From Microbulbifer hydrolyticus (GTDB lineage Bacteria > Pseudomonadota > Gammaproteobacteria > Pseudomonadales > Cellvibrionaceae), in NCBI RefSeq assembly GCF_009931115.1, contig NZ_CP047491.1, positions 930,001 through 994,000 on the forward strand: a DNA stretch of 64,000 nt. The letters run 5' to 3'. Shown piece after piece: positions 16,199 through 19,295 of the stretch (its first letter is position 1; each line of letters begins with the position of its first letter). The notes beneath the pieces were generated by a model. The model was not told the origin of the DNA, did no database searches, and worked only from the letters and a program-made list of their open reading frames with translations. Position numbers and translations under genes: made by a program.

Positions 16199-16262
16199 TT
16201 AAAAAGGCCCGCTACTTTGAGGTGACGAGCCTTTTTGATTTGGTGGGATGACGGGAGTCGAA
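16199..16262 (-). repeat. Decayed copy of the tmRNA 3' end and terminator; candidate attachment-site remnant
   Basis: This 64-base stretch aligns with 18865-18929, the end of ssrA and its terminator, at roughly 80% identity with one gap. On the minus strand it reads TTCGACTCCCG, then eleven bases ending in CCA, a short A+T-rich spacer, and a terminator-like hairpin whose stem has decayed. The similarity stops abruptly at the T-loop of the tmRNA. Order and orientation are those expected if an element integrated into ssrA, rebuilt the 3' end and displaced the old one. The interval between copies holds only the second DUF3604 gene and no integrase. A remnant of another tRNA gene is possible. Confidence 0.6.
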
Positions 16263-16439
16263 TAATTGGCTGTATGGCCCGTCAATACTGACTTTTCATG
16301 CGGCTCCTAACGTGGGCCCCACATATAACCCCACCATGAGGCGGGGGTACTTCTGTAAGGTGTAAAAGCTGCTACATCGATATTGGGCAGGGGACAACAG
16401 GGTCCCCTTATTGCCATTTACCACATCGCCTCTGTCGGC

Positions 16440-18353
16440 TCACTGAGGTGTATACCAGATCGGTGAGGTGTAGGCGCGTTCCTGGATGGTGGTGGGAACA
16501 TTGTCCGGTCGCTTCACCCCGAAGACCTTTGCGTCGATGGTCGTCCAGCGCGGTGTGGGGATCTCGATAACCCTCACGTAGTAGAAGGCCTTTTGTGCTG
16601 GATCAAAGTCAGGGTCTTTCCAATACGCATCCAGTGCTACTGCGCCAATCGAGTTGTCGTACGTGGCTTGCTCGACATTGACGGTATTGCCGACGGGCTC
16701 TTTGCTGCGTCCGTCGGTGCCGATGGTTCGGCCGCCAGAAACCGCGAGATCGTAGACTTTTTCGTGGGTCTTGCCCTTGGCGTCCGCCCAGCCTTTTATC
16801 ATCTGAATCCGATCGAGATTGGCACCGTCCGGGTCGCGCAAGGCGCGGACGAGAAAGGACGGTGCTTTGTCGGACTTCTTCAGGTCGCCTCCCATAGGCA
16901 CACCTTTGTCATAACCGTTCTTGGCGAAGTCAGAGCGCAGCAGGTCCTTTTCGGAGAAGTCGAAGCCGCCAAACACCCGAACCCGAATGCGGGTGCCGGT
17001 TGTGGCGAATACCTCCTTGCGGGCCATGGCGTCCCAGATGGCTTCACGTGTATTTTCCCTTGCCCAGACCGCGGCAATGCCAGCCGCGCCAATTTGGCTG
17101 GCGTACGACTGGCTGCCTTTCGGCGCCGGCCGACCTGCGACCACTTCCTCGAAGCGAACCGGCGCGGCGCTAGGCTCGAGTAGGCTGACCTTGCCGAAGT
17201 AATTGTCTTCTTCTGCAGTGGATAATGCCGTGTGGGAGTCCGTTGACCCGATCACACCGAACTTGAACGGGTTGGCGCCCAGTTTAGCTTCATATACGAG
17301 ACCTCGCTTCCACGCTTCGCGGGCATATTCCTTGGGCAACATATCCTTGGTCTTGGGTTGTGGCCCGAAACTGCCGCGGTCCCAGGTTTCATAGTCGGCG
17401 AACTCGTCGTCTGGTGAGAACATCGGGTGGGCTTCACCGTCGCCCTTCATTTGTGTGATTTCATAGATGGGCTCCCACTTCATGCGGCGTTTCGCGTACT
17501 CCTCAGTGAGGGGGTCGCCGGTGTACGTCTGATCGTCGAACATCAAACCATTGGAGAGGTTGCCGTTGTGCGGGATCGCGAGCAGACGGCCGCCAGTTTT
17601 CTTCTCGTAGGCGGCCATCCACTTCCACAGGTCCTCAGGGTCGAAGCTGTCGTACTGGGAAAACGGCAGGACCTGGCTGGCTTTGTCCCCGCCGTCGCGG
17701 AAAATAATATTGCGGTGAATATTGTTGCCATCGGGCATCGACGTCCACTCATAGCCGATGAAGGCGGTAAAACGTCCCGGGCTGTTGTACTTTTCTGCGG
17801 CCTCAATGATTTTCTTCCAGTAGTTCTCCATCATTTCGGGCATATCTGCCAGCGGGTTGTCACGGGCGGCATTTTTGGCCATCCAGTTTTCGTAGGCTTG
17901 GAGCGCACCCTCGGTGCCGGACTTAACCAGATCGTGTTGCTTTTTACCCCAGGCATTTTTAAGCAGGTCCGGGTCCGAAACGGCGATGGCAGGGGAGAGG
18001 CCCAGGTTCTCCGCGTGGTCTGACACCACGAGGAAATCGAGCGGACGATTAAGGCGTGCCGGGACGCCAGTGCTGGAGGTGACTTCCTCACCCATGGCGA
18101 AGCGGTAGGCATCTTCCGGCGTAAGCGTGCAGCCTACCATCCCGGCATCGGTGGAGTAACTTGTGTGAAGGTGGGTCTCACCGAAGAGCACTTGATTCGG
18201 GAAGTCTTGGCCGGGGTATGGAGAGTACCCGATTTTCTTGGCTTCCTTTATTTCTTCTTCTGTTGGAGCCGGGGTGTCCTGGGCGTGTAGGCTCGGAAGG
18301 GCGAAACCCATGAGTGCGAGTGCGGCAGCGGTTCTGATAAATGTGTTTTTCAT
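16440..18353 (-). CDS. DUF3604 family protein (PHP-like predicted metallohydrolase), copy 2, secreted
   Basis: A 637-residue paralog of the protein at 5226-7163. It has a Sec signal peptide cleaved near LHAQ-D (about residue 24) and no lipobox, so it is soluble in the periplasm or exported. It shares FGETHLHT, LVVSDHAE, IGYEWTSMP, AIPHNGN, GVIGSTDSHT and the terminal SPIWYTP block with copy 1. Unlike copy 1 it stands alone, without sulfatase, parvulin or HupE-like neighbours. It lies between the tmRNA gene and the decayed tmRNA-end copy, which suggests it arrived on a small integrated element. Reaction unknown. Confidence 0.88.
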   Translation of the reverse strand: MKNTFIRTAAALALMGFALPSLHAQDTPAPTEEEIKEAKKIGYSPYPGQDFPNQVLFGETHLHTSYSTDAGMVGCTLTPEDAYRFAMGEEVTSSTGVPARLNRPLDFLVVSDHAENLGLSPAIAVSDPDLLKNAWGKKQHDLVKSGTEGALQAYENWMAKNAARDNPLADMPEMMENYWKKIIEAAEKYNSPGRFTAFIGYEWTSMPDGNNIHRNIIFRDGGDKASQVLPFSQYDSFDPEDLWKWMAAYEKKTGGRLLAIPHNGNLSNGLMFDDQTYTGDPLTEEYAKRRMKWEPIYEITQMKGDGEAHPMFSPDDEFADYETWDRGSFGPQPKTKDMLPKEYAREAWKRGLVYEAKLGANPFKFGVIGSTDSHTALSTAEEDNYFGKVSLLEPSAAPVRFEEVVAGRPAPKGSQSYASQIGAAGIAAVWARENTREAIWDAMARKEVFATTGTRIRVRVFGGFDFSEKDLLRSDFAKNGYDKGVPMGGDLKKSDKAPSFLVRALRDPDGANLDRIQMIKGWADAKGKTHEKVYDLAVSGGRTIGTDGRSKEPVGNTVNVEQATYDNSIGAVALDAYWKDPDFDPAQKAFYYVRVIEIPTPRWTTIDAKVFGVKRPDNVPTTIQERAYTSPIWYTPQ

Positions 18354-18864
18354 GTCGCTTGATTCTCCCGCCGAGTTTACATTCAGAAGTTGTGATTAGC
18401 TGATTCAGTGATAGCACGTGAGCAGGGAGGATGGGTTGATGATGGAGCGGGGGCTCTAACTTTGGCGTCATCGTAATTTTTTGGCTGTAAATTTGCGGGC
18501 TCTTTAGCCAATTTTTTACCCCCCTTCTCTTAATTTGTGGGTGTGTCGATTTGGTTTCCCGCATGGTGTATGTGAATAGCCCCAGAGATTTACCCCCCCC
18601 CATGGGCTTGACTGGTGGACGCTGAGGCTTTCGGAATACTGGGGTCAGAGTAAAATATTGACGCTGCATTCTTCCAAGTGTGTCGAGCGGTCTTGCCTGA
18701 GAGTGAAGGGCGAGAGTTGGGATTTTATATGTGGTGTGAGTCCGTTGGCGGGAGTGATTCGTCACTTGCGCTCCTCACCCCTTCGGGGCAGCCTGCGGCT
18801 GTCTTGACGCGCTGCGCGTTGATTGAACCCTCGCTTTGCATTCCACTCGAGGCAGCTCGCTAAA
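18354..18864. other. Intergenic region between DUF3604 copy 2 and the tmRNA terminator
   Basis: No supported gene. It contains an 8-C run near 18593-18600, the GGGGTCAGAG-type repeat at 18641-18663, and a string of short GC-rich inverted repeats between about 18775 and 18825 (for example CCCCTTCGGGG). The promoter of the DUF3604 gene should lie in the first 100 bases but is not obvious. Confidence 0.5.
18641..18663. repeat. GGGGTCAGAG-type short repeat, copy 2
   Basis: Matches the element at 3187-3209 at 20 of 23 positions in the same orientation. It may be a mobile REP-like remnant. It lies inside the interval bounded by the two tmRNA-end copies. Confidence 0.5.
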
Positions 18865-18865
18865 T

Positions 18866-18903
18866 TAAAAAGCCCCGTTACCTTGCGGTAACGGGGCTTT
18901 TTA
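18866..18903 (-). terminator. Rho-independent terminator of ssrA
   Basis: A perfect 16-pair stem (18867-18882 with 18887-18902) with loop TTGC; the outer pairs are A-T, so the minus-strand transcript ends in a U-run. It begins four bases past the mature tmRNA 3' end. Confidence 0.9.
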
Positions 18904-18906
18904 ATT

Positions 18907-19295
18907 TGGTGGAGGTGGCGGGAGTCGAACCCGCGTCCGTCAGCACTCTGCCAGAGGCTCTACATGCTTAGATCCGTCTATTGATTTAGCTCGTTACAGC
19001 CCAACGGGCAGGACGTAACTCGCGAGCCTGAATAAGTTTTAGGCCATCCACGTCAGGCACGCTTCAGGACGATCCAGTTCTGTATGACAGCCATCAGCGC
19101 GGTACTGGCACCTTACTGAAGGCCGCTAAGGGGCGAACCCTTAGTAGTGCGTCACGGGCTGCTTACGCAGCCAGTTGGGCACCGTAGTTGTCGTCGTTGG
19201 CAACTAATAAAATACAGCTTTGGATTTACGTGATTCGCTGCCATCACGGCATGCACCCATGGTTTCGTCACCGGCGTCGAATCCAAGTCACCCCC
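18907..19295 (-). ncRNA. ssrA: Transfer-messenger RNA (tmRNA)
   Basis: A one-piece tmRNA of 389 bases. The 5' end GGGGGTGACTTGGATTCGACG pairs with the 3' CACCTCC before CCA to form the acceptor stem, and the T-arm reads GGGTTCGACTCCC. The tag frame (19201 down to 19163 on the minus strand) encodes ANDDNYGAQLAA and stop, giving AANDDNYGAQLAA with the charged alanine. Pseudoknot regions lie on both sides of the tag. Together with SmpB, encoded 3 kb away, it rescues stalled ribosomes and tags the nascent chain for ClpXP. The tag and 5' domain are as in Saccharophagus/Microbulbifer relatives, which supports the taxon. Confidence 0.96.

Follow-up and report, generated by a model that had tools for sequence, protein, structure and literature searches.

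A probable integrase-less tmRNA-island remnant carrying a DUF3604 gene downstream of ssrA in Microbulbifer hydrolyticus

Displaced ends of tmRNA and tRNA genes are textbook marks of genomic islands (Islander, PMC4383910), and integrase-less islands at ssrA have been described in Dehalococcoides (PMC3146451), as have CIMEs in streptococci (PMC7563491). Transformation coupled to homology-facilitated illegitimate recombination has been proposed as a domestication route in which mobility genes are lost and cargo is kept (PMC4795794). We analysed a stretch of 64,000 nucleotides of the Microbulbifer hydrolyticus chromosome (hereafter the window), in which a 2.6-kb interval downstream of the tmRNA gene is bounded by a second copy of the ssrA 3' end. 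An integrase-less tmRNA-island remnant is a known kind of feature; the twist here is the presence of two native-type terminators.

Like the islands recognized by Islander (PMC4383910), the locus comprises an intact tmRNA gene, a same-orientation displaced 3' fragment and cargo between them, but it differs from them in having neither an integrase nor an island left end. The arrangement expected of an Islander-type island, in which the gene end adjoining ssrA derives from the island and the native end is displaced, does not occur in the window. Islander requires an integrase and would therefore reject the interval, and such remnants are missed by any island finder with the same requirement. The Dehalococcoides ssrA islands (PMC3146451) share the repeated integration at ssrA, the arrays of displaced 3' ends, the many units without an integration module and the metabolic cargo; however, their integration relies on a serine recombinase and their repeat is 20 bp long, whereas the islands considered here have tyrosine integrases and arm repeats, and the duplication includes the terminator. 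The interval also resembles CIMEs and microCIMEs (PMC7563491) in that it has decayed, lacks an integrase, has an att site by its target gene and has kept its cargo. It encodes neither integration nor transfer functions, its attR is present in decayed form, and its left side is the ssrA end without arm repeats. In contrast to CIMEs, attL is unrecognizable in the window, and neither a conjugative parent island nor continued mobilizability is indicated. In the general proposal on domestication (PMC4795794), mobility genes are predicted to disappear while the cargo stays, and a native flank joined to half an island would fit that prediction.

The ssrA gene, its flank and the displaced 3' end

One tmRNA gene was detected in the window by both ARAGORN and Rfam, and the features downstream of it are listed in Table 1. 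Distances are given downstream of the ssrA 3' end, such that the position in the window is 18907 minus the distance.

Table 1. Features of the ssrA region, in window coordinates
Feature	Position	Strand	Evidence
ssrA (tmRNA), tag ANDDNYGAQLAA, intact	18907..19295	-	ARAGORN; Rfam RF00023, 195.7 bits
Native ssrA terminator hairpin, adjoining gene	18863..18906	-	Fold -30.3 kcal/mol
Native ssrA flank, ~270 bp	18634..18906	-	Match to congener flanks, ssrA to about +273
Island landmark M, left border of cargo slot	18514..18599	-	Matches inside ssrA islands
Cargo gene DUF3604, 637 aa, intact frame	16440..18353	-	Pfam PF12228, E 9e-249
Island right end with arm-type repeats	16262..16336	-	Alignment to right ends of G032, G060, G026, G006, G010
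attR, displaced ssrA 3' end (TTCGACTCCCGTCATC-CCACCA)	16241..16262	-	82% over 68 bp to ssrA including terminator
Second, decayed ssrA terminator copy	16195..16240	-	Fold -17.1 kcal/mol

Self-comparison recovered the last 22 nt of ssrA together with its terminator at 16195-16262 on the minus strand (82.4% identity over 68 bp, E 1.5e-12), so that the same-orientation repeat noticed in an earlier, sequence-only reading (about 80%, 16199-16262 versus 18865-18929) is real. The local alignment score of this copy was 74, compared with a best score of 26 in twenty 32-kb dinucleotide shuffles, and nothing in the 64 kb besides ssrA and the copy itself scored above 26. The alternative that the 16.2-kb copy is the end of a different tRNA gene was rejected, since neither ARAGORN nor Rfam detected a tRNA or other RNA family at the site. 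The similarity to ssrA begins inside the T-loop, at TTCGACTCCC, as first described, but this is not the limit of recognizable sequence: homology to islands of congeners runs 75 bp beyond, to 16336. Because these 75 bp are homologous to the right-hand ends of ssrA islands from other species of the genus, the copy is a genuine attR. Its acceptor part bears a 1-nt deletion (CATCCCACCA) common to the displaced copies of G032, G060 and G019, and absent from every ssrA gene inspected. The hairpin of the copy is decayed, folding less stably than the intact ssrA terminator (Table 1), and it sits between the convergent genes at 16440-18353 (-) and 15309-16097 (+). The latter had been considered as a DUF429 protein; Pfam gave no match, and the gene was left unnamed.

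Comparison with congeners indicates that the DNA adjoining ssrA is the native flank, and not an island left end. The same terminator sequence type stands beside ssrA in G002, G020, G021, G024, G027, G028, G029, G035 and G036. The first ~165 bp of the flank are 86-93% identical to the flanks of G018 (at its attR), G029, G020 and G002; the best match is the native flank of G018, now at attR (93.5% over 186 bp), and identity to most island-free congeners (e.g., G029, G020 and G002) is 88-91%. Arm repeats, which are present near the left end of most islands, were not found in the ~270 bp beside ssrA, nor could attL, a replication module or an island left end be recognized there. The GGGGTCAGAG repeat (18641-18650), previously counted among the contents of the interval, was reassigned to the native flank because a similar element occurs at about the same offset in G020 (+287) and G015 (+279 from attR), and was rejected for the same reason as an island or transposon mark. 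The ~165-bp segment at 18739-18906 ends with CACTCCCGCCA, resembling the att core, and is found in tandem in several congeners; it may be a microCIME-like scar.

Island landmarks and ssrA islands across the genus

To place these features, we read up to 18 kb downstream of ssrA in 36 first-round congeners and G060, with one genome per species and a few contigs ending earlier. A full tyrosine integrase starts ~150-240 bp after ssrA in 14 of the 37, and integrase fragments occur in four. Pfam assigned PF00589 plus an arm-binding domain to the island integrases of G032 and G018, and a Toprim/AAA protein was identified in G032. Where an island is intact, ssrA is followed directly by island DNA that supplies its own terminator, a conserved left end, arm repeats and the integrase, and the native terminator is found at attR, at a distance of 5-12 kb in the majority of the examined cases. 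For example, the empty site of G029 reads ssrA end, terminator and hydrolase gene, and its close relative G032 reads the same after a 7.8-kb island. Tandem islands are present in G006, G010 and G026, and the contents of the cargo slot vary (an alkyl sulfatase in G018, a metallo-beta-lactamase-fold hydrolase in G032). G018 (L048) additionally carries the ssrA 3' end and terminator in inverted orientation near its attR, ~5160-5211 bp after ssrA.

An 8-mer repeat is found at both island ends and differs by class (GACGGGTT, GTGGGGTT or TGTAACAC). Among the islands assigned to classes (G005, G006, G009-G011, G014-G016, G018, G019, G025, G026, G030, G032 and G060), the class agreed wherever both sides were scorable, with only the right side scored in G014. 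These class-specific repeats are probably integrase arm sites. The right end in the window is of the GTGGGGTT class, with one exact and one decayed copy at ~16314-16335, and its paired repeat reads GGTGGGGTTATATGTGGGGCCC, versus GGTGGGGTTATTTGTGGGGTT in G032. For each of the right ends of G032, G060, G026, G006 and G010, none of 2,000 shuffles aligned as well, whereas the GACGGGTT-class island of G030, for which 22 of 2,000 shuffles matched the score, does not align.

Landmark M was matched within the ssrA islands of G032 (74% identity, E 1e-8), G060 (77%, E 5e-12) and G018 (69%, E 0.01), and no shuffle out of 2,000 reached these scores. In G032 and G018 it separates the mobility genes from a cargo gene that ends near attR. 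No other strong copies were found in 41 genus genomes searched with the G032 and window versions. With the G032 version, G013 showed a weak similarity over 52 bp (E 1.6e-4; L090, around C1:681354), situated 1.17 Mb from the G013 ssrA and outside any ssrA island, with no displaced ssrA end in the 20 kb read around it; M is therefore strongly, not exclusively, tied to ssrA islands. Sequence internal to ssrA, which would favour integration into a duplicated ssrA tail, was not found before M. The window thus has the two marks of a GTGGGGTT-class ssrA-island remnant, namely an arm-repeat right end beside a displaced ssrA end and M to the left of the cargo slot, and with these on either side DUF3604 occupies the cargo slot of an island.

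Relatives lacking the island were expected to have a single ssrA 3' end and terminator, which holds for most (e.g., G020, G021, G028, G029, G035 and G036) but not for G002, G013 and G024. These three carry extra degenerate 3'-end and terminator copies with no DUF3604 gene at the locus, albeit at other positions than in the window, so that the counter-case to the sequence-only reading (both hairpin copies without the gene) occurs in a different sense only. In G013 and G024, the extra copy follows the next gene. G002 has the native flank at ssrA and, at +3.8 kb, what remains of a right end (GGTGGAGTTATTTGTGGAGTC) together with a 3' end and terminator in decayed form, while G027 has the native flank and, at +0.5 kb, a GACGGGTT-class right end with the att core. 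The half-erased layout thus appears in G002 as well, and probably in G027, which means that the arrangement of native flank plus half an island recurs. The suggestion that relatives might hold the same interval with an integrase was borne out in part: the interval is present in none of 47 other genus genomes, but its landmarks accompany an integrase in G032 and G060.

The DUF3604 gene and its relatives near tRNA and tmRNA genes

Besides overlapping unsupported open reading frames, DUF3604 is the only gene in the interval, and it covers the whole PF12228 profile (positions 3-591 of 591). Its closest kin are in Chromatiaceae and Lysobacterales assemblies (78% identity), followed by Robertkochia and Tropicimonas (73%) and by proteins within the genus (69%). 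In a quick tree, which has some long genus branches but none in the relevant clade, the protein falls in a 10-row clade (SH-aLRT 99) and groups with Chromatiaceae, Lysobacterales and Flavobacteriaceae, apart from the main paralogue group of the genus. Given this grouping, the gene looks horizontally acquired. A plasmid search with the region returned a distant DUF3604 match and nothing else. The predicted structure (pLDDT 86.6) best matched the PHP phosphoesterase 2anu in the PDB (E 9e-5, TMt 0.59), and seven His/Asp residues are invariant (H60, H62, D111, H112, H261, D371 and H373). The protein may be a PHP-type metal phosphoesterase; no paper on DUF3604 function was found in the literature searched.

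Five of the seven closest DUF3604 loci (L095, L097, L098, L100 and L101) lie just 3' of a tRNA or tmRNA gene or of a tRNA 3' fragment that is repeated, versus 4 of 73 other DUF3604 loci (~1e-4, hypergeometric; an association noticed post hoc, with differing flank lengths and with L096 too short to be judged). L101, from Robertkochia marina, is an intact tRNA-Met island (3756-9766) in the order tRNA-Met, pirin-like gene, regulator, DUF3604 and tyrosine recombinase, where names other than DUF3604 and the integrase were assigned by eye; its 82-bp repeat spans the tRNA end and terminator (97.6% identity). Across 42.7 kb at L100, one tRNA 3' fragment occurs several times in displaced form, an intact tRNA gene is absent, and DUF3604 follows the final copy (the remainder of the contig is L178, L201 and L202). 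No convincing displaced ends were found around L095, L097, L098, L126, L153 and L169, so that for the first three adjacency alone is shown. In HTCC2080 (L115; tmRNA at 9504-9894, minus strand), each tandem unit consists of the terminator and the final 20 nt of ssrA, and DUF3604 is 1.65 kb downstream. A broader proposal, that this DUF3604 subclade travels across phyla as cargo of tRNA/tmRNA islands in single-gene, att-flanked, integrase-less units moved in trans (with secreted sulfatase units as companions), is one we regard as rather doubtful.

Origin of the interval

Taken together, the interval is very likely the remnant of an ssrA island without integrase, in which M, DUF3604, the right end and attR persist and the left part was later lost. 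Direct support comes, at the level of sequence, from attR, the right-end and M homology, the apparent foreign origin of the cargo, the absence of an integrase and the native ssrA flank; the loss of the left part would have occurred by truncation from the left. The landmark identities, at just 69-77%, count against this interpretation, as does the M match in G013. The sequence-only reading had taken the displaced 3' end as the trace of integration at ssrA, which is strengthened by its junction with a recognizable island right end and by the intact islands that occupy this position in 14 of the 37 congeners. Its picture of a rebuilt gene, in the usual sense, was not sustained, as the native terminator and flank adjoin ssrA and the second, decayed terminator is at attR. 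Its observation that the interval lacks an integrase extends to the ssrA-downstream region of the window, where nothing similar was found, the nearest being a 45% homologue 0.6 Mb away. With the integrase and a recognizable attL absent, we infer integration from one end. Moreover, two native-type terminators cannot result from one simple integration, so an extra, hypothetical step is needed.

We propose that an island whose tyrosine integrase belonged to the GTGGGGTT arm-site class entered the ssrA 3' end, or a second copy just downstream, and that crossover in the T-loop/acceptor segment displaced one 3' end and terminator as attR. The island would have brought the horizontally acquired DUF3604 gene in the slot between M and the right end. 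Its left part (attL, integrase and replication protein) would have been lost afterwards, leaving M, cargo, right end and attR, while the attR copy decayed and ssrA kept or regained its native terminator. Two routes to this last state seem about equally likely. The flank may have been restored by recombination with an island-free allele through one homologous and one illegitimate junction, the former in ssrA and the non-homologous end near 18600-18634. Otherwise, the island may have used a second, downstream 3'-end copy, with subsequent deletion of the left part and survival of the native flank; the extra ssrA-end copies in HTCC2080 and in G013 and G024 are relevant to this route. What is left of the element is probably immobile on its own, with DUF3604 now a resident gene.

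Other origins have some precedent. The interval could be a complete, integrase-less, att-flanked cassette akin to a CIME and moved by an integrase acting in trans, with the ssrA-side terminator and flank as its own left end. The 82-bp repeats of the Robertkochia marina island include the terminator on both sides, an arylsulfatase-like gene without its own integrase lies between two ssrA-end copies in G060 (L089, 6811-9530 bp after ssrA), and 15 ssrA islands without an integration module are known in Dehalococcoides (PMC3146451). However, the ~270 bp beside ssrA are the native flank of the genus, free of the arm repeats typical of left ends, and the two copies are just 82% alike, so that excision would harm the ssrA acceptor end; we consider a cassette improbable.

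Considerably less probable still is a tandem duplication of the ssrA tail by slippage or illegitimate recombination, with no integrase and with independent arrival of DUF3604. Such events are suggested by HTCC2080, where the ssrA 3' end and terminator stand in three tandem units 156 bp apart, and by an old-duplication junction in G029 and G032, where an internal ssrA fragment is joined to the 3' fragment of a gene. (These junctions lie at ~1353-1449 bp after ssrA in L059 of G029 and ~9140-9246 bp in L062 of G032, and the gene is the counterpart of window 15309-16097.) Yet the copy in the window is preceded by a 75-bp island right end, not by ssrA or its flank, and M, an island landmark, lies on the opposite side of DUF3604. 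On the strength of the right end and M, we also rejected the simpler case in which nothing but the hairpin was duplicated. We give least credence of all to the hairpin being a bidirectional terminator that serves the convergent genes 15309-16097 and 16440-18353 and merely resembles the ssrA terminator: it does lie between them and still folds (-17 kcal/mol), but the likeness goes beyond the hairpin to the ssrA CCA end and T-loop half and continues into the island right end.

As an ssrA-island remnant, the locus illustrates how a mobile island can become an ordinary chromosomal gene beside an essential RNA gene, with the mobility genes erased and one enzyme gene remaining. The genus offers a graded series of states at one site (empty, intact, tandem and truncated), and the 8-mer repeat classes should be useful for the study of integrase specificity. 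The relatives of the cargo gene hint, in addition, that one clade within an uncharacterized enzyme family is repeatedly associated with tRNA/tmRNA islands.
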